Of a stretch of DNA of 64,000 nucleotides, positions 38,107 to 52,269 are shown one piece after another (position 1 is the stretch's first letter; the number at the start of each line of letters is the position of its first letter). The stretch is from Chitinophagaceae bacterium (GTDB lineage Bacteria; Bacteroidota; Bacteroidia; Chitinophagales; Chitinophagaceae): contig CANGTN010000002.1 in assembly GCA_947456805.1 (NCBI GenBank), forward strand, positions 49,126 through 113,125, given 5' to 3'. The notes beneath the pieces are model-generated. The model did not search any database. It worked only from the letters and a program-made list of their open reading frames with translations, and was not told the DNA's origin. The position numbers and the translations under genes are program-made.

Positions 38107-41100
38107 TTATCTCAAGACTGTAAGCCATCCACTTCTGATAGGTTTATTATCACCAGTGTTGATGATGTAATAGTACACTCCTATTGGAACTGGGCTACCA
38201 TTTTTCCTTCCATCCCAAGGTGTTGCATATCCTTTTGATTGAAATATGATTTGCCCATTTCTATTAAAAATTTGAACAGTAGCATTTGGAAATAAATTCA
38301 GATTAGTAATATCCCAATTATCGTGTAATCCATCTCCATTTGGTGAAAAGACATTAGGTATTTTTAAATCTTTTAATAATTTCACATTAACCGTATTACT
38401 TGCACGACAGCCGTTTTCATTAGTTACAGTTAATTTGTATAGCATGTCTGTTAAGGGATTTATTACCCAAGGGTTAGCAGTTGTATTGTTTGAAAGATAT
38501 GTTGAAGGAGTCCATAAATAATTGAATAAAGCACCTCCTGTAACTGTACTAATCAGTTGTATACTATCACCTTCAAATACATTTTTATCAGGTCCTGCGC
38601 TGACAATTGGATTGGCAAATATTACTACATTTACTGCGGTTGATAAATTGCTACAACCATTGCTGTTACTGACTTTCACGGTATAGTTTCCTGCTTCTGT
38701 TATTTGTTGAGAATTGCTTGTGCCACCTGAAATTAAAATGCCATCTCTAAACCATTGATTATCTGTTGATGCAGAACTATAAAGTATTAACGAACTGTCT
38801 GCACATATTTGTAATGGTCCTGTAGGAGTTATTGTTGGAATTGTAGGGGCAGAAACTACATTCACACTAATTGTTGCTTGTGGACTTTCGCAATTGTTAA
38901 TTGTTTGTGTTACGTAATAATTGGTTGAACCAATAACCGTTGTTGATGGTATTGGGCTTGTACTTGTGCCGACGCTACTATTTGGTAAATTATACCACAA
39001 CAGATTTGAGCCTGTTGCTGTTAATGCTGTTGCTGTTGTGTTTTGGCAATATACAATTGGAGTAGTTACAATTGGTGTATTTGGTATTGCATTAATTGTG
39101 ATTGTTGCAGTTGGTGTAATGGTACAGTTACCAACTGTTAAGGTGTAGGTAATAGTATAAATTCCTGGTGTACTAGCAGCAAGATCAATAACTCCTGTCG
39201 TTGCATTAATGATCAATCCATTGCTACTACTGAATGTTCCGCCGGATGTTCCTGTGATTGTTGGAATTGTTGTTCCAACAGCACAAAATGAATTTGCAGA
39301 ATACGTAAATGTAGCAACCGGTAATGGATTGACAGTAATGCTAAATGTTGTTGGTGCGCCGCTGCAAATACCACTTTGCGAAATAAAATTGCCCAATGAA
39401 TGTGGTGCTAAACCAACTCCTACATTTGTCGTTACTACGTTTGTTGCTGTATTAATTACTGATACATTATTTGATCCAAAATTTGCAATAAATGCTTTAC
39501 TACCATCGGCAGTGAATGAAATACCTTGTGGATTACTTCCTACAGAAATTGTTCCAGATACTGTGTTTGTTGCTGTTTTGATTACAGAAACATTTCCACT
39601 CAATTGATTGGTTACATATACTTTCATTCCATCGGGAGTTACTGCAATTCCATTGGGTGCAAAACCAACGGGAACGCTTGTAATAACAGAATTGGATGAA
39701 GTATTGATGATTGAAATATTGTTCGATCCGAAGTTGGTAACATACAATCTGCTTCCATCAGGGCTGATTGCTGCGGTAATTGGTTGATTACCTACTCCAA
39801 TTGAAGTAATTACAGTATTGGTAGCAGTATTAATCACAGAAATATTATTGGAGTTTACGTTGGCTACATAAACTTTGCTACCATCAGGACTGATTGTTAC
39901 TCCTTGTGGTTGCAATGAAATGGGAATAGTTGCAACAACTGAATTAGTTGCAGTATTGATAACGGAAAGTGTGTTTGATAATTGATTTGCAACATATACT
40001 CGGCTTCCATCTGGACTAACAACAAGTCCCATTGGTTGGCTTCCAACTCCAATTGTATTTACAACAGTATTTGTAGCAGTATTAATTACAGATACTGAAT
40101 TGGCTCCATAGTTGGTTACATATACTTTCGTTCCATCTGAACTTGCTGAAACTCCAAACGGATTACTTCCAACCGTAATTGTTGCGGTGACTGTATTGGT
40201 GTTGGTATTGATGACCGTTACGGTGTTACTTAATGGAAATGATGTAACACTTCCATAATTAGCAATGTAAGCAAATGATGAAGGAACAGGTGTTGCAGTA
40301 ATTGTTGCGGTAATAGGTGTTGTGCCAGTATTTAATGCGGTAAATGATGCGATATTTCCTGTTCCATTTGCTGCTAAACCAATAGCTGTATTATTATTTG
40401 TCCAGTTGAAAATATTCGTTCCTGCTCCCGAAAAATTAATGGGGGTTGTTGATGTATTTGTACAAACTGTTTGATTGGATACTGCATTTATGCTAGGTGC
40501 TGCATTAATATTTATTGTAATGCTTGCTCTTGGGCTTTCACAACCATTTACTGTCTGACTTACATAATAATCTGTATTTCCTATTGCTGTTGTAATAGGC
40601 GTTGGTGCAGTTGTATTTCCAGTTCCACCTGTTACAGCATTGTACCACAATAAATTTGTACCGGTTGCAGTTAAAGCAGTTGCTGTAACATTTTGACAAT
40701 AGCTAATTGGTGTGGTAATAGTTGGTGCTGCTGGAGTTGCATTTATAGTTACAACAATATTTGCTCTTGGACTTTCACAAGCACCCGATGTTTGACTTAC
40801 ATAATAATTTGTATTGCCTGCTGCTGATGTTGAAGGTATTGGTGCAGTTGCACTTCCTATGCCACCAGTTGCAGCAGTGTACCACAATAAATTAATACCT
40901 GATGCAATTAAAGCATTTGATGTAGCGTTTTGGCAATATGTAATTGGAGTAGTAACTATAGGTGCTGCTGGAGTTGCGTTTACTGTAACTACAATAGTTG
41001 CTCTTGGGCTTTCACAACTATTTGCTGTCTGAGTTACATAATAATTTGTATTGCCAGTTGTTGTTGTATTAGGTATTGGTGCAGTTGCATTTCCTGTGCC

Positions 41101-42285
41101 ACCCGTTGCAACATTGTACCACAATAAATTAGTACCCGTTGCAGTCAAAGCTGTTGTTGCAGCGTTTTTACAATATGTAATTGGAGTAGTAACTATAGGT
41201 GCTGCTGGAGTTGCATTTACTGTTATTAAATTAGTTTGTGAAATAGGGCAACTGGAAGTACCGGAAATATAGTTTACCGTATATGTAATTTCATAAGTAC
41301 CATTCAATCCAGAAGGGTTAAATAAGTTTCCACTCACGCCAATTCCACTCCATGTTCCACCACTGGTTCCCGTAATTAAATTGGTTAAGTTGATAGATGA
41401 GGTATTTGAGCAAATTGTACCAGATGGTGCTGTCCAACTTGCAGTTGGAATATCTCCACCACTATTAATTGTAAGAGTTAAGCCAGCTGAATAATTAGGT
41501 GAAGATGAAGCATATGAAGTTGCAGAACTATAGCTAGTCCAATTAGTTGGATTGCTTATTCTTGATATCCAAGTTGTTTGATTGGCAGCAGATAATGGTC
41601 CTGTGTATTTATTGTAGGCTGCGCCATTAGTAGGCGCCATACTAAAGCAATTCATGCCGGGATATAAACCTGATTCTCCTGAAGATTGCTGAAAAGATGA
41701 CCAAGACCCACTAGTTGAGAAACCGAACAATATTCTACCATTATTTCCGGGGAAAGTGGCATTTGGTGAAGTTCTACTACCATTAATTGTGCAAAGAGAA
41801 CTTAACTCAGACCATATGCCTCCTTGTGCAAAATAAATTTGATCGCCACCTGAATTAATATTGAAATCATTGGCAAGTACAGAATAATTAGTATTTGTTG
41901 GATGAACGTATAAATCCGTAACAGCCCATCCATTATCAGGAGACAAGAAAGTGTATGGAGAGGTATTTCTAAATGTTATGACAGTTCCTGCTGCGATTGT
42001 TGGTCCAGTTCTTGTAAACTTAGCTCCGCCTTCTTGTCCACAACTCCACAATCCTGCAAGGCAATTTTCATACCCTGCGTCTAATATTTGAATTTCCGTA
42101 CCGGTCATTATCGGTTTAAAACAAACAAAGCTGATTTCATCTTTTGTATTAAGTGTTCCAGAAGAGGCGAGATTTGCATTAACTGCCACAATCGCTAAAT
42201 CCCCTCTATTCAATATAGTTTGAGAATGGATATTTTTAAATGCAAAAAATATTAAAAATGATAGGAGGAAGTATTTTCTATACAT
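38107..42285 (-). CDS. Large secreted modular protein: LTD-like N-terminus, Ig-like repeats, 7-repeat YVTN beta-propeller, PKD-like region, T9SS type B (gliding/CHU_C-like) C-terminal sorting domain
   Basis: Signal peptide; repeated LLWYN..TGGTG..TAPIP units; KVYVTN/SPDGS repeats; C-terminus NVFSPNGDGLHDNWDITNLNLFPNATVQIFNRNGQIIFQSKGYATPWDGRKNGSPVPIGVYYYII. Confidence 0.92.
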   Translation of the reverse strand: MYRKYFLLSFLIFFAFKNIHSQTILNRGDLAIVAVNANLASSGTLNTKDEISFVCFKPIMTGTEIQILDAGYENCLAGLWSCGQEGGAKFTRTGPTIAAGTVITFRNTSPYTFLSPDNGWAVTDLYVHPTNTNYSVLANDFNINSGGDQIYFAQGGIWSELSSLCTINGSRTSPNATFPGNNGRILFGFSTSGSWSSFQQSSGESGLYPGMNCFSMAPTNGAAYNKYTGPLSAANQTTWISRISNPTNWTSYSSATSYASSSPNYSAGLTLTINSGGDIPTASWTAPSGTICSNTSSINLTNLITGTSGGTWSGIGVSGNLFNPSGLNGTYEITYTVNYISGTSSCPISQTNLITVNATPAAPIVTTPITYCKNAATTALTATGTNLLWYNVATGGTGNATAPIPNTTTTGNTNYYVTQTANSCESPRATIVVTVNATPAAPIVTTPITYCQNATSNALIASGINLLWYTAATGGIGSATAPIPSTSAAGNTNYYVSQTSGACESPRANIVVTINATPAAPTITTPISYCQNVTATALTATGTNLLWYNAVTGGTGNTTAPTPITTAIGNTDYYVSQTVNGCESPRASITININAAPSINAVSNQTVCTNTSTTPINFSGAGTNIFNWTNNNTAIGLAANGTGNIASFTALNTGTTPITATITATPVPSSFAYIANYGSVTSFPLSNTVTVINTNTNTVTATITVGSNPFGVSASSDGTKVYVTNYGANSVSVINTATNTVVNTIGVGSQPMGLVVSPDGSRVYVANQLSNTLSVINTATNSVVATIPISLQPQGVTISPDGSKVYVANVNSNNISVINTATNTVITSIGVGNQPITAAISPDGSRLYVTNFGSNNISIINTSSNSVITSVPVGFAPNGIAVTPDGMKVYVTNQLSGNVSVIKTATNTVSGTISVGSNPQGISFTADGSKAFIANFGSNNVSVINTATNVVTTNVGVGLAPHSLGNFISQSGICSGAPTTFSITVNPLPVATFTYSANSFCAVGTTIPTITGTSGGTFSSSNGLIINATTGVIDLAASTPGIYTITYTLTVGNCTITPTATITINAIPNTPIVTTPIVYCQNTTATALTATGSNLLWYNLPNSSVGTSTSPIPSTTVIGSTNYYVTQTINNCESPQATISVNVVSAPTIPTITPTGPLQICADSSLILYSSASTDNQWFRDGILISGGTSNSQQITEAGNYTVKVSNSNGCSNLSTAVNVVIFANPIVSAGPDKNVFEGDSIQLISTVTGGALFNYLWTPSTYLSNNTTANPWVINPLTDMLYKLTVTNENGCRASNTVNVKLLKDLKIPNVFSPNGDGLHDNWDITNLNLFPNATVQIFNRNGQIIFQSKGYATPWDGRKNGSPVPIGVYYYIINTGDNKPIRSGWLTVLR
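39385..40282 (-). repeat. About seven in-frame ~126-bp (42-aa) YVTN propeller repeats
   Basis: Protein repeats of the form [KR]VYV[TA]N..SN.[VI]SVINTATN.V...I.VG..P.G...SPDGS. Confidence 0.88.
40480..41230 (-). repeat. Tandem ~240-bp repeats encoding Ig-like modules (three near-identical plus a divergent unit)
   Basis: ggtgctgctggagttgc recurs near 41201, 40961 and 40723; ttgctcttggRctttcaca recurs at the same phase. A further solitary unit lies near 38850-39090. Confidence 0.88.
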
Positions 42286-43400: not shown

Positions 43401-45182
43401 TTATCTTCTTGCTCTGAAGTTACATTGAATTGGATGATTAGTATTTGTAGAACTATCTCTCAAGATTGCAGTAAAACTACCCGCAATATAAGTACCTGTT
43501 AATGTGCCGTATTCGGTTGTAGTAACTGTTGAGCTGTTTGGTGTATAAACATACCGAGGACTATTTGTAGCACTAGTACCTACACTAAGTGAAGTTAAAG
43601 GGTAAGTGCCAACACCATTTCCATTGAAAGAAAAAGAAATACTTTTTTGTGTATTCGGTGATGAGCTACCATAACCATAGATTGAAGTACCAGTTGTAGT
43701 TCCCTGAGTATTGGTAAATGCAATTATAGAATCTGTAGGTGGTAAAATTGAATAGTTAACACCATCAATATTGTAGTAAATATATCTTGCAGTAGATATT
43801 CCACATGCAGTAATCGAACCCAAGTTGGTAGTTGGATTAGTTATTACCATTGTTGCAGTAGCACTTTGTTGATTGTTGGTTGCATCAACGGCATAATAAG
43901 TTATACTAGGTGATGACGAACAACTTAAAAAAGATAAGCTGAATACTCCACTAGCATTGGTAACTGCTGTGTAGTTATTGGTTCCAACCGAAATCTTTAC
44001 AAAACCATTCGTAACTGCGTTATTACTGCAGTTTACAACAGTACCCGAAATGGAAATTGAATTTTGAGCAGGTATGGTTACAGTTATAGTACCCAAAGAG
44101 TTGGTAGTACCTGTAACAAAAGGACCAATATTTTGTGAAAAGATAGGAGTATTGCATGTGTAGCCGGATGATACTTCCAAAACCAAAGATTCATTGGATG
44201 GTACTTGTCCTGTTACATATCCCGTTGAATCAGTAAATCCATAAGAGGAAGAACCATTGGCTCTTTTAATTCTTATCAATGCATGTTGCAAGGGAGCATT
44301 ATTTTGGTTGATAAATTTTGCAGAGAATCTGGCCAATGGAAAATTAGCATCGCAATTCCAAAATGAAAAATGGCTGACATCTGCAATATAAGCACTACCA
44401 GTTTTTGTAGCAGTACCTTCTTGTTTCCATAACCCTGTGGTATCATTAAAACTCCACAATGCAATTGTGCTAGGGGCTGTAGCCAATATAGATGACGGAA
44501 TAGGAAATTTAATATTTGCTTTTTTCCCATTTGCAATTTGTAGTTTTTCACCATTTGTACCTGTCAGTTCTACCCCTAACATTCCAAAACTTTGTAGTAC
44601 TTGCTCTGAACCGCTTGCATCAATCCCTCTTAAATCGCCAGGCATCTGTCTATATAAATCTGTAGAGGTAGGATTAATCCATGTCATTGCAATTGATACA
44701 TCACCTGTGTATGCATTTCCTGTAGTGATGTTGATGATTCCGTTTGCTGGTAATGTAATTGCAGAACCGTTACCAATATTTAATGTACCACCTGATATTG
44801 CATTAATCTTACCCACAGAAATTTTAGAAAGAAGCATTATTTCTACATAATGTTTTTGATTTTCCTTTGCAAAAAATGTTCTGCTACCTTTAAAGTATCC
44901 AGATTTTTGAACAGTAACAACAGCAGCTGATTCATTTAAACTTGCATTATTGATTCTGAAGTTCCCATTTAAATCTGTTGTGGCAGTAGAATTTCCAGCA
45001 GTAATAGTGGCTCCAGAAATTGGCTGATTACTTTCATCTACAATTCTTCCTGTGACAATTACTGAAATTTTATTTACGGGGAATGGATTATTAGAATCGC
45101 CGGAAGAGTTTTCTTTTTTGCATCCTGAGAACATAGCAAAAAAGACACAAACAATCAGGCACATTCGGTTAATGGTATTCAT
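43401..45182 (-). CDS. Lipoprotein with carboxypeptidase-regulatory-like domain
   Basis: Lipobox FAMFSGCKKE; VTGRIVDESNQPISGATITAGNSTATTDLNGNFRI (CarboxypepD_reg-like). Confidence 0.82.
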   Translation of the reverse strand: MNTINRMCLIVCVFFAMFSGCKKENSSGDSNNPFPVNKISVIVTGRIVDESNQPISGATITAGNSTATTDLNGNFRINNASLNESAAVVTVQKSGYFKGSRTFFAKENQKHYVEIMLLSKISVGKINAISGGTLNIGNGSAITLPANGIINITTGNAYTGDVSIAMTWINPTSTDLYRQMPGDLRGIDASGSEQVLQSFGMLGVELTGTNGEKLQIANGKKANIKFPIPSSILATAPSTIALWSFNDTTGLWKQEGTATKTGSAYIADVSHFSFWNCDANFPLARFSAKFINQNNAPLQHALIRIKRANGSSSYGFTDSTGYVTGQVPSNESLVLEVSSGYTCNTPIFSQNIGPFVTGTTNSLGTITVTIPAQNSISISGTVVNCSNNAVTNGFVKISVGTNNYTAVTNASGVFSLSFLSCSSSPSITYYAVDATNNQQSATATMVITNPTTNLGSITACGISTARYIYYNIDGVNYSILPPTDSIIAFTNTQGTTTGTSIYGYGSSSPNTQKSISFSFNGNGVGTYPLTSLSVGTSATNSPRYVYTPNSSTVTTTEYGTLTGTYIAGSFTAILRDSSTNTNHPIQCNFRARR

Positions 45183-47097: not shown

Positions 47098-48663
47098 TTA
47101 TTTTTTTGCTCTCCTTGGTGGAAAGAAATTTCCTGTTTTAATATTTGCTTTAGTTCCTTCAGGTGCTCCGAAATGTGTCATTGCACAACGGAATCCTATG
47201 GTGCTGCTGCTTTGTTCTTCTTCTAGAAACCTTCTAGCACCTGGGCTTAACCAATAAGGTCTGTCATTCCAGCTACCGCCCTTTATTACTCTTGATTTGT
47301 CAGAAATTAAAGTTGTAGATCCATAATTGTAAAGAGATGAGCGTCCATCTAATGTAGAATCACCATCTAAATAGTCGATTACTTTAGACTTTTGATAGTT
47401 TCTTCTTTTCTTCAACAATGAATCAGGCTCATTTTCATACACTACTCGTCCTAAAGAATCTTTGGAGTATTCACCGGCTGTATCTTTCTTAGCTCTCTTA
47501 AATTCATTACCACGGAAGTAATTGAAATCATCACCTTCTAATGTAGTTAATGGTCTGTATACATCAGCTACCCACTCACTCACATTGCCACTCATATTAT
47601 ACACGCCAAATCCATTTGGGAAAAATGAAGATATAGGAGCGGGGATTGCACTATTATCATTTAAACCACCTGCAACTCCCATGTTATCTCCGGAACCTCT
47701 TTTAAAGTTTGCTAAAAAAGCACCTTGAAAAGCTCCTCTGCGGGTACTGCGTAAATTATCAAAGCCATCATTTTGCCAAGCAAAAATTTGTTTATTAGAA
47801 ACCACTTCTTCACCACGTGTTTTTTCACTTTTTTTAGGTTGGGGATTGCTTAAAACATATCCATAGGCAGCATATTCCCATTCAGCTTCTGTTGGTAATC
47901 TATAATCTCCATATAAAATTCCATCATCAAACTTTGCAGCTCTTGGTTTCCCTTTAGCATCTTTCAAAGGACTTTTATTTGTTGGAGGAGTTTTAGGATT
48001 GTATAACCCCATTAAGTATGACTTAGTATTGAAATTTTCTTCGTGTACATTATTCATTCCGCCTTTAAGGTAATCCTTTGCGTTGATGATACCTTTGTCT
48101 ATCAAAGCTTTCTCATTAACCCTGTCTGTACGCCAAATACAAAAATCATAAGCTTGCTTCCAGTTTACACCAACAACGGGGTAGTAATTATAGGAAGGAT
48201 GACGGAAATAATATTCTACGTATGGCTCGTTGTAAGCTAATTCGCTTCTCCAAACTAAAGTGTCTGGTTTTACATCTTCAATCGCTTGTTTGTATTTATC
48301 ATCATCTCCAAAGGTATTCTCAACCCAATAGATATACTCTTTGTAATGCACGTTTGCAACTTCAGTTTTATCAATAAAAAATGAATTTACAGTTACTCGT
48401 TTAGGAATATTATTCCAATCGCCCATTACATCTTCTTGAGAAGCACCCATTGTAAATGTCCCTCCTTGTACAAAAACAAGTCCGGGACCTGTTTTGATAT
48501 CCTTTGGTTGTGCTACTGTAAAGCCGCCTGTTTTTTTGTCGTTATAGTTCCAGCCCGTTACACCTGACTTTTCTTCTTTCTTCTTAAATAATTTACAAGA
48601 AGACAATGTAACCATTGCCGCCAATAATAATGTTGCATTTTTAAATCCTGTTTGCATGCGCAT
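47098..48663 (-). CDS. gldJ: Gliding motility lipoprotein GldJ-like (SUMF1/FGE-sulfatase fold)
   Basis: Lipobox VTLSSCKLF; FVQGGTFTMGASQEDVMGDWNNIPKRVTVNSFFIDKTEVANVHYKEYIYWV; RVIKGGSWNDRPYWLSPGARRFLEEEQSSSTIGFRCAM; next to porU/porV. Confidence 0.88.
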   Translation of the reverse strand: MRMQTGFKNATLLLAAMVTLSSCKLFKKKEEKSGVTGWNYNDKKTGGFTVAQPKDIKTGPGLVFVQGGTFTMGASQEDVMGDWNNIPKRVTVNSFFIDKTEVANVHYKEYIYWVENTFGDDDKYKQAIEDVKPDTLVWRSELAYNEPYVEYYFRHPSYNYYPVVGVNWKQAYDFCIWRTDRVNEKALIDKGIINAKDYLKGGMNNVHEENFNTKSYLMGLYNPKTPPTNKSPLKDAKGKPRAAKFDDGILYGDYRLPTEAEWEYAAYGYVLSNPQPKKSEKTRGEEVVSNKQIFAWQNDGFDNLRSTRRGAFQGAFLANFKRGSGDNMGVAGGLNDNSAIPAPISSFFPNGFGVYNMSGNVSEWVADVYRPLTTLEGDDFNYFRGNEFKRAKKDTAGEYSKDSLGRVVYENEPDSLLKKRRNYQKSKVIDYLDGDSTLDGRSSLYNYGSTTLISDKSRVIKGGSWNDRPYWLSPGARRFLEEEQSSSTIGFRCAMTHFGAPEGTKANIKTGNFFPPRRAKK

Positions 48664-48825: not shown

Positions 48826-51800
48826 ATGAAAAATCTTAAATATACAATCCCACTAGCTTTTTTTTTAGGATTATTTAACTTAAAAAATACCATTCTTTTT
48901 GCCCAAAGGCAATACACTGCTCAATCTGTGCTGGCAACTGGCAATTGTTATAAACTATTTACAAAAATTGACGGTATTTACAAAGTAGATGTTTCTTTTT
49001 TAAATAGACTAGGTATCAATACAAATAATTTGGCATCCTCCTCCATTCAATTATTTGGTAATGGAGGTAAAATGCTGAGTGAAAATAATTCAATTTATCC
49101 TATCGATGATTTATATGAAAATGCAATTGAAATGTTTGATGGTGGAGATGGGATTTTTAATGGGAATGATTTTTTTTTATTTTACGGAGAAAGTCCAGAT
49201 AATTGGCTTAAGGATAGTATTAATCAAAAATTTATTCACCAGAAAAATATTTATTCCGATAGTGTAATTTATTTTATAAAAATTGGCAATAATGGCAAAA
49301 GAATAAATAACTCCAATACTGTATCAGCGGCTAATAAATTTGTAACCAATTTCAACGAAAGGTATTTTTATGAGCAAGATTTAATCAACTTTTTAAATAG
49401 CGGGAAAGAATGGTTTGGAGAAGAATTCAGTAGTTTGCCAGGTAATAGCTTATCTCGGTCATTTTCTGTTGATATGAGTGGTTTAGAACTTACACAACCT
49501 ATACAATTGAGCACCAACTTTGCATGCAGAAGCATAGGCTCTTCCAGTAGTTTTTCTGTAACTGTAAATAATCAACTTGTTCAGAGTTTAAATATGGGGA
49601 TTGTTTCGGGGAATTTTCTGGAGGCTTATGTTACTAATAATTTTCAAAACTCCGTTTTTACTACAAATAACAGTTTGCTTAATATTTCTATTAGATTTAA
49701 TCCTTCATCACTATCATCTCAAGGTTGGTTAAATTGGTTTGAATTACATGTTAGAAAAAATTTAAGTATGAGTTCGCAATCACAATGTTTATTCAGAGAT
49801 TGGCAAAGTGTGGGTGCCGGAAATGTTGCAAAATATACTATTACAAATTGTACTTCAAACACGTCTGTTTGGGATATTACAAATCCTTTGGTTCCCGAAA
49901 AAATGTCAACGACACTTAGTAGTACTTCCCAATTAAGTTTTAATCGAGAATCAAGCAGACTTAGAGAATTTATTGTTTTTAATAATTCCAATTATTTAAT
50001 ACCAGTTACTATTGGCAAAATAGATAACCAAAATTTACATAATTTTCAACAAGCAGATTATCTAATAATTGCTCCTCCTGTTTTTTTATCCGAAGCCAAA
50101 AGGCTTGCTTTGTTTCATCAGCAACAATATCAGTATAAAGTAGTGTTAGCAAGTACTACAGATATTTTTAATGAATTTGCATCCGGAAATGCCGATCCCT
50201 CTGCAATAAAAGATTTTGTAAAAATGTATTTTGATAAAGCAGCCGGAGACACTACCAAAACACCTAAGTATTTATTGCTTTTTGGTGCGGCTTCTTTCGA
50301 CTATAAAAACCGCTTAAAAAACAATACTAATTTTGTTCCTTGTTACGAGAGTATTAACTCAATTGATCCTTTGCTGAGTTATACTTCTGATGATTTTTTT
50401 GGTTTACTTAATGATAATGATGACATTAATCTAAACTCGCCACCAAGTCAGTTAGATATTGCTGTTGGCAGAATTCCCATTTCTTCAGTCAACGAAGCTA
50501 AAAACGCTGTAGATAAAATCATCAATTATCATTCAAAAATAAGTTTGGGGCAATGGCGCAACAATACCATTTTTACTGCAGATGATAAAGATGGAAACAC
50601 ACATTTGAATGATGCAGAATTTGTTTCAAACAATGCTAATACAACCAATAATTTATTCAATCAGAGTAAAATTTATTTAGACGCATATCCGCTAGTAAGT
50701 GGAAGTGGAGGAGGTAGATATCCTGCTGTGAATAATACAATTGTTAATCAGATTTCAACAGGGGCTTTATTCTTTAATTACAATGGCCACGGGGGTTACA
50801 ACCGATTGGCAGATGAAGCTATTTTAAGCCAGGATGAAGCCAATCAATTTAATAATGCAAACAAATTGCCCTTATTTATTACTGCAACTTGCGATTTTGT
50901 TCCATACGATGATCCTACAAAAACTGCATTAGGAACATCTTTATTGGTGGCGGGAAAAACCGGTGCTATTGGTTTGGTAACTACAACAAGAGTTGTATTT
51001 GCTTTCAGCAATAGAATTATGAATGATAATTTTTTAAAAACTATTCTCAAAAAAGACTTTACAAAAGGTTATTTAACATTGGGTGAATCAGTAAGAAGAG
51101 CCAAAAATGAAACCTACCAAAACTACTCTGACGTAATAAATAATAGAAAATTTACACTGATTGGTGATCCTGCAATTCAACTGGCTTTTCCAAAAACAAA
51201 CATTCAAATTACAAGTATTAATAATCGTGCAATAACAGGAAGTGATACTTTAAAACCTTTATCCAAATACACATTTAGTGGTCGGATACTGGATTTGAGC
51301 GGTGCAATGCAAAATAACTTCAACGGCACTATTTATCCTGTTTTATTTGATAAAGTACAACCTATAAAAACTTTAGGCAACGATTCTCAAAGCCCTATTG
51401 TACAATTTAACCAACAAACCAATGTAATCTATCGGGGCAAGGCAACAGTTCAAAATGGGTTATTTAATTTTTCATTTATTGTACCAAAAGATATTAATAA
51501 TCAAGTAGGAAATGGTAGACTTAGCACATATGCAGAAAATGGCATCACAGACGCAAATGGTGTTTTAAATTCATTTTTAATTGGAGGTGTTGGTAATAAT
51601 CTTATCTCAGATTCAAAAGGTCCCGAAATAAAAGCATACTTGAATGATGAGAAGTTTGTTAATGGAGGATTGGTCAATGAAAGACCTATTTTAATTTTAC
51701 AACTATCAGACTCATCCGGAATAAATTCTAGTGGAATTGGAATTGGTCATGATATCACAGCTGTAATTGATGGAGATGAAAAGAATATTATTGTATTGAA

Positions 51801-52269
51801 TAGTTTTTATGAGTCAGCTCAAGATAATTATCAAAATGGAACTATTCATTACCAACTGAATTCATTAAGTGATGGTGTTCATTTCATCAAAATAAAAGCA
51901 TGGGATATTGCTAATAATTCATCTGAAATTATTATTGAGTTTTTAGTGGCAAAAACGCAGCAATTAAAAATTCATCATGTTTATAATTATCCTAATCCTT
52001 TTACTACAAGTACAAATTTTTGGTTTGAGCACAATCAACCCTCTACCAATTTAAATGTGCTGATCAATATTTATTCGGTTTCTGGGAAATTGGTACATCA
52101 AATCCAGCGGTCAATCATTAGTGATGGAAATAGAGTAAATGATATTTTTTGGGATGGAAAAGACAAATTCAATCAAAAATTAGCACGTGGTGTATATTTT
52201 TATCGTATTATTGTGTCGAGTTTGTTTGGGCAAAAAGCTGAAACTACTCAAAAAATATATTTATTGTAA
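48826..52269 (+). CDS. porU: Type IX secretion system sortase PorU (C25 peptidase family) with C-terminal sorting-like domain
   Basis: FFNYNGHGGYNRLADE (His) and LFITATCDFVPYDDP (Cys) dyad; C-terminus NYPNPFTTSTNFWFEH...DGKDKFNQKLARGVYFYRI; followed by porV. Confidence 0.93.
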   Translation: MKNLKYTIPLAFFLGLFNLKNTILFAQRQYTAQSVLATGNCYKLFTKIDGIYKVDVSFLNRLGINTNNLASSSIQLFGNGGKMLSENNSIYPIDDLYENAIEMFDGGDGIFNGNDFFLFYGESPDNWLKDSINQKFIHQKNIYSDSVIYFIKIGNNGKRINNSNTVSAANKFVTNFNERYFYEQDLINFLNSGKEWFGEEFSSLPGNSLSRSFSVDMSGLELTQPIQLSTNFACRSIGSSSSFSVTVNNQLVQSLNMGIVSGNFLEAYVTNNFQNSVFTTNNSLLNISIRFNPSSLSSQGWLNWFELHVRKNLSMSSQSQCLFRDWQSVGAGNVAKYTITNCTSNTSVWDITNPLVPEKMSTTLSSTSQLSFNRESSRLREFIVFNNSNYLIPVTIGKIDNQNLHNFQQADYLIIAPPVFLSEAKRLALFHQQQYQYKVVLASTTDIFNEFASGNADPSAIKDFVKMYFDKAAGDTTKTPKYLLLFGAASFDYKNRLKNNTNFVPCYESINSIDPLLSYTSDDFFGLLNDNDDINLNSPPSQLDIAVGRIPISSVNEAKNAVDKIINYHSKISLGQWRNNTIFTADDKDGNTHLNDAEFVSNNANTTNNLFNQSKIYLDAYPLVSGSGGGRYPAVNNTIVNQISTGALFFNYNGHGGYNRLADEAILSQDEANQFNNANKLPLFITATCDFVPYDDPTKTALGTSLLVAGKTGAIGLVTTTRVVFAFSNRIMNDNFLKTILKKDFTKGYLTLGESVRRAKNETYQNYSDVINNRKFTLIGDPAIQLAFPKTNIQITSINNRAITGSDTLKPLSKYTFSGRILDLSGAMQNNFNGTIYPVLFDKVQPIKTLGNDSQSPIVQFNQQTNVIYRGKATVQNGLFNFSFIVPKDINNQVGNGRLSTYAENGITDANGVLNSFLIGGVGNNLISDSKGPEIKAYLNDEKFVNGGLVNERPILILQLSDSSGINSSGIGIGHDITAVIDGDEKNIIVLNSFYESAQDNYQNGTIHYQLNSLSDGVHFIKIKAWDIANNSSEIIIEFLVAKTQQLKIHHVYNYPNPFTTSTNFWFEHNQPSTNLNVLINIYSVSGKLVHQIQRSIISDGNRVNDIFWDGKDKFNQKLARGVYFYRIIVSSLFGQKAETTQKIYLL

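Follow-up and report, generated by a model that had tools for sequence, protein, structure and literature searches.

A seven-bladed YVTN propeller nested in the F-G loop of a PKD_5-type domain in a T9SS cargo protein of a Chitinophagaceae bacterium

A secreted protein of a Chitinophagaceae bacterium contains an Ig-like domain of the PKD_5 type with a complete seven-bladed propeller nested in its F-G loop. The gene lies in the window, meaning the whole 64,000-nucleotide stretch of DNA that was analyzed, and the two parts of the host domain and the guest between them share one open reading frame on the minus strand (Table 1). The observation is confirmed as real, and the arrangement is a wider one, of which the window protein is an example. 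In related proteins across Bacteroidota this loop of the PKD_5-type domain acts as a reusable socket, which holds propeller, LamG-type, PA14 and glycine-rich guests beside intact copies of the same domain.

Table 1. Features of the cargo gene, in window positions, with residue numbers of the encoded protein
Feature	Position	Strand	Evidence
Whole gene, 1392-aa multi-domain secreted surface protein (P0001)	38107..42285	-	single ORF, 1392 codons
Probable signal peptide, aa 1-21, MYRKYFLLSFLIFFAFKNIHS	42223..42285	-	read from sequence
N-terminal region, aa 22-277 (~255 residues)	41455..42222	-	0 Pfam families
Ig_7 (CHU_C associated) tandem domains, 3 copies	40524..41223	-	PF19081; 237-bp DNA period, 82% matches
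Split PKD_5-type Ig-like domain, part one (AVSNQ...PVPS), strands A-F, aa 596-669	40279..40500	-	intact-repeat profile 96.8 bits, 1-75 of 88; AlphaFold2
Guest, complete seven-bladed YVTN propeller, aa 670-970, closed 3+1	39376..40278	-	TIGR02276; 1L0Q match
Split PKD_5 domain, part two, G strand, aa 971-989, SGICSGAPTTFSITVNPLP	39319..39375	-	fused-profile matches, AlphaFold2, alignment
Next, separate Ig-like domain, aa 990-1065, own closing strand	39091..39318	-	sequence; such a domain follows intact PKD_5 in L065
CHU_C / T9SS type B sorting domain, aa 1307-1392	38110..38367	-	PF13585 89.9 bits; TIGR04131 66.0 bits, cut-off 35

The C-terminal TIGR04131 match is above its cut-off and marks the protein as a T9SS type B cargo; the source genome holds ten genes with this domain. 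Stretches matching PF19081 (Ig_7) occur five times across the protein, and additional Ig-like domains lie between the split domain and the sorting domain. The N-terminal region, in which no Pfam match was found, is kept in the orthologue of genome G461 (52% identity over aa 1-1310). The orthologue of genome G011 reads as two copies in the tandem Ig_7 region. Close to the cargo gene, at a distance of a few genes, are the T9SS sortase PorU (NF033707, 1301 bits; window 48826-52269, plus strand) and a GldJ-like lipoprotein (window 47098-48663, minus strand; TIGR03524 402.6 bits, under the cut-off of 458.2). The minus strand at 43401-45182 encodes a 593-aa protein with a lipoprotein-like signal followed by an apparent carboxypeptidase-regulatory-like segment, for which no NCBIfam match was found.

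The window comes from a draft genome of 128 contigs, and the arrangement could in principle be an assembly chimera or a recent accident in this one genome. This reading is refuted by the orthologues, which leave it virtually no probability: G011 contains the same gene with the same neighbors in the identical order dnaA-cargo-tatD and with 90% identity across a 400-aa region, G461 contains a full-length relative, and the same split is found in isolate genomes, among them those of Mucilaginibacter pedocola, Flaviaesturariibacter aridisoli and Spirosoma profusum.

The host domain is hidden from a routine search. Neither the full-length protein nor the upstream piece alone gave a Pfam match to PKD_5 (PF19406), while removal of the propeller, the fused-sequence check proposed in the first-pass annotation, produced a match over profile positions 2-88 of 88 (18.8 bits, E 0.0015). 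This is under the gathering score of 25, which the fused domain of a related protein (L161) approaches with 24.9 bits. Because the Pfam score of the fused sequence is below the gathering score and thus not decisive, a sharper host profile was built from seven intact PKD_5 repeats of the related genome G096. Against this profile the upstream piece alone ends at position 75 of 88 (Table 1), whereas upstream and downstream pieces joined score 103.1 bits over the full length, positions 1-88, in line with the earlier suggestion that the downstream segment is the missing last strand. The fused domain is 51-63% identical to intact PKD_5 copies elsewhere, and their alignment places the insertion exactly between TATITATPV and C.G.P..F.ITV. 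The PKD_5-type domain is complete only once both pieces are joined. Its G strand is not borrowed from the domain that follows, since that domain ends in a closing strand of its own.

The structure was modeled with AlphaFold2 on an alignment of 55 nested sequences, yielding a model of high confidence along its whole length, with a pLDDT of 95.6 and a pTM of 0.89. The model has strands at 13-16, 33-38, 48-50 and 66-75, then the propeller, and then one further strand at 387-394. This last strand would be available to close the upstream sandwich, the predicted F-G pairing following from the strand assignment, the confidence of the model and homology. A run without aligned relatives reached a pLDDT of 59, with the Ig-like part below 50, and that model was discarded. 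The flanking segments do not make two complete domains in the confident model, which together with the fused-profile matches supports the original suggestion that the propeller is nested in a late loop of the sandwich and is not placed end to end.

The guest itself fits the description of seven YVTN-type repeats that follow an Ig-like sequence within one frame: TIGR02276, the NCBIfam model of the 42-residue YVTN repeat, matches in seven stretches (279.1 bits; curated cut-off 27.85). The claim that seven repeats make a closed propeller can be refined. The AlphaFold2 strand list indicates the usual 3+1 closure, where the N-terminal part of blade one supplies three strands (SFAYIANYG.., NTVTVINTN.. 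and TVTATITVG), six full blades follow, and a closing strand (APHSLGNFIS, short in the list) returns to blade one, so that 3+24+1 gives 28 strands and seven blades. With this closure both ends of the propeller lie in blade one, in neighboring strands.

Among solved structures the nearest is 1L0Q, a propeller from a Methanosarcina surface-layer protein (E 2.5e-97; 1.0 A rmsd over 301 columns). As in the window protein, a homologous seven-bladed propeller occurs there together with a PKD-type domain; however, the match covers only the propeller (profile 77-370, chain 1-296 of 391), and the PKD domain of 1L0Q follows its propeller end to end. Weaker, distant matches are to Lactonase, YncE and Bacteroides surface propellers, and on their account the guest could be an enzyme or a cofactor binder, lactonase-like or binding a metal or corrinoid, instead of an adhesive or recognition module. 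This is considered unlikely, because the enzyme-family matches are partial and under the equivalog cut-offs, and 1L0Q is by far the closest solved relative. A putative role in adhesion, to a polymer or to another cell, is the most likely one.

Relatives were searched for in 84,980 species genomes and in 399 genomes of the order, which yielded 160 distinct propellers, 63 of them, in 32 loci, with a PKD_5 half directly upstream; the query used to retrieve the loci was itself nested, which biases these counts toward nesting. The 32 loci include Chitinophagaceae, Mucilaginibacter, Pedobacter, Flaviaesturariibacter and Spirosoma, and all are split at the same F-G loop, so that the survey proposed at the outset did find propellers with the identical split point in many other secreted proteins. 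The G strand follows the propeller in 62 of the 63 by an automatic rule, and in the remaining one (L059 copy 1, where the sequence runs into SLGNFIRKGGPCTA) it was recognized by eye. The insert is 283-303 residues long, with a single exception of 247. By match coordinates the nested form occurs in 8 of 399 genomes in the order sample and in 3 of 395 in the class sample, and it is thus rare but recurrent. Tandem nested units with a period of ~500 aa, two to six per protein, are found in Mucilaginibacter and related genomes. No described case of a propeller inside an Ig-like domain was found in the open-licence literature.

The same incompleteness is repeated in these relatives. Upstream pieces alone end at profile positions 72-79 in all 62 cases, and the joined domains reach 86-88 in 60 of them. 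Joining increases the score by a mean of 5.6 bits; when the downstream pieces are shuffled the mean change is -0.3, and when they are taken from other propeller proteins it is 0.5. Individually, 16 of the 62 cases are not above the shuffled 95% level. Among the PKD_5 matches of all fetched loci that start at profile position 15 or earlier, 67 end at 72-83, 62 at 84-88 and none earlier.

The propeller is not confined to this host. Un-nested copies of the cassette, which starts with (A/S)YAYI and ends with GNFI, directly follow signal peptides or are flanked by complete TIG domains or by other modules, which assigns the nesting to the PKD_5 context and not to the propeller. Elsewhere, one 1269-aa protein (L165/L203, G663:C39:12881-15853) contains fourteen consecutive YVTN repeats over ~595 residues and then another propeller; the run of fourteen might represent two propellers back to back.

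The end-to-end use between TIG domains, and the ITVNP-like ends that many modules of these proteins share, would agree with a simpler arrangement, in which the propeller stands between two complete domains and the likeness of the downstream segment to a G strand is a general linker feature. Such an arrangement is very improbable. The upstream module lacks its own closing strand, as its early stop in all 62 cases and its extension on joining indicate. The confident model also opposes such an arrangement, and C.G.P..F.ITVNP, the motif on the downstream side, belongs to PKD_5 and is missing after un-nested propellers.

Guests other than propellers occupy the same PKD_5 loop. The 3167-residue protein L065 of Flaviaesturariibacter aridisoli contains eleven intact PKD_5 domains, two with propellers and one with a LamG-type guest (PF13385, 44.6 bits) in the F-G loop. 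In the 4098-aa protein L222 (G346:C2:86000-105000; ORF L222:1-10761:+), residues 1924-3040 comprise three PKD_5 domains with three different guests in their F-G loops, namely a glycine-rich segment of 283 residues, a LamG-type domain (59.0 bits) and a PA14 domain (PF07691, 45.0 bits), with intact PKD_5 copies between and after them. L142 and L144 have about nine PKD_5 copies each, a single one of which carries a propeller. In the LamG relatives L209, L211 and L213-L215 the LamG domain is not nested in PKD_5.

The relationships of hosts and guests in L065 disagree. The PKD_5 domain of propeller A is sister to that of the LamG guest (96/94, on short alignments of 92 columns), while propellers A and B are sisters of each other (99, quick propeller tree). 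From the sequences of this one protein, guests appear to have been swapped between PKD_5 hosts. An opposite reading is that nesting arose once and that the PKD_5-propeller pair spread and was duplicated as a fixed composite, with neither a general socket nor guest swapping. Nested propellers are indeed strongly clustered, requiring 10 changes in the propeller tree as opposed to 32 in shuffles; well-supported branches force only two changes, and the tandem arrays are duplications of a composite unit. The tree used was a quick one of 95 rows, replacing a fasttree of 156 propellers, and neither resolves the number of origins. A single fixed composite is nonetheless unlikely, given that LamG, PA14 and a glycine-rich domain are found in the same loop, that guests and hosts of L065 have different nearest relatives, and that L142 and L144 carry one propeller among many sibling PKD_5 copies.

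A second host type is interrupted in a comparable way. The giant proteins L201 (G507:C169, 5503 aa) and L202 (G542:C56, 4228 aa) contain BACON/HYDIN-like Ig repeats that are broken at one loop, after NTG..L.(Y/F), where segments of propeller, LamG, reelin-like or ThuA-like type intervene; the broken repeats alternate with uninterrupted ASH-type domains. The fused BACON_2 match scores 30.4 bits, versus 25.7 for the second half alone and none for the first half. In L143 (G392:C110, residues ~480-830) a YVTN propeller apparently lies in another loop of an HYR-like sandwich (..GEGTFTYSKSV - propeller - IENPTAYHPTNGEV..). This sandwich has two partial matches in one other genome and no Pfam match, and the presence of a propeller within yet another sandwich is weakly supported. 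Taken in general terms, it is probable that unrelated domains are inserted and exchanged in the PKD_5 F-G loop, that at least one other host type, BACON/HYDIN-like, is used likewise, and that the arrangement is an independently evolved counterpart of the split domains of RTX adhesins.

Those Ig-like split domains, known from FrhA, MpIBP and AhLap, are the closest known thing to the PKD_5 nesting. They project ligand-binding guests sideways off the fiber axis, with the guest ends adjacent and PA14 among the guests (PMC10865825, PMC12077191). Neither of these two papers uses the word "propeller". In both systems the Ig-like fold is discontinuous in sequence and is completed after a guest with side-by-side ends, and the PA14 guest has its equivalent in the PKD_5 socket of L222. 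However, FrhA splits after the first strand, while in PKD_5 the break comes late, past profile position 72-79 of 88 and ahead of the last strand. The RTX proteins belong to type I secretion, with RTX nonapeptide repeats, in Gammaproteobacteria, whereas the window protein instead carries a T9SS type B signal in Bacteroidota; the host family, PKD_5, and the seven-bladed propeller guest are different as well. By analogy, the PKD_5 nesting would work like an RTX adhesin split domain, although it is not one, having another secretion system, host family and split point.

Other comparisons are more distant. PKD_5 (PF19406) arrays of Bacteroidota secreted proteins share the host domain, but the Pfam model describes a contiguous domain of 88 residues, and the interrupted form goes unmatched in the full-length protein. 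Lp49 of Leptospira (PDB 3BWS) similarly combines Ig-like and propeller folds in one surface protein, where the two are consecutive domains. Foldseek superposes Lp49 poorly as a whole (13.5 A).

The explanation favored with good confidence is that of a T9SS cargo with an Ig stalk, in which a split PKD_5 module carries a propeller guest in a reusable F-G socket for lateral display, the display part by analogy with the RTX proteins. The surface-exposed protein would form a stalk of Ig-like modules, one of them, of the PKD_5 type, being split in the F-G loop. Because the 3+1 closure places the ends of the propeller in neighboring strands of one blade, the propeller can replace a beta-turn of the host without breaking either fold, as the sequence and the confident model show. 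Held at both ends, the guest may project laterally from the stalk and turn its free face outwards, in the manner of the RTX split domains. The most likely function is to display a binding propeller laterally on a stalk of Ig domains.

Annotation pipelines miss split domains because each half is too short, and joining the halves across the guest exposes both the host domain and the guest. The guests found at the same loop in relatives suggest a general bacterial socket for the sideways display of domains. Should the loop prove to be a true socket, it would allow candidate ligand-binding domains to be recognized from sequence alone, as whatever emerges from split modules, in the large and mostly unannotated T9SS surface proteins of Bacteroidota. 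It would also mean that two phyla have reached the same way of presenting binders, and it would offer a natural plug-in scaffold for protein display.
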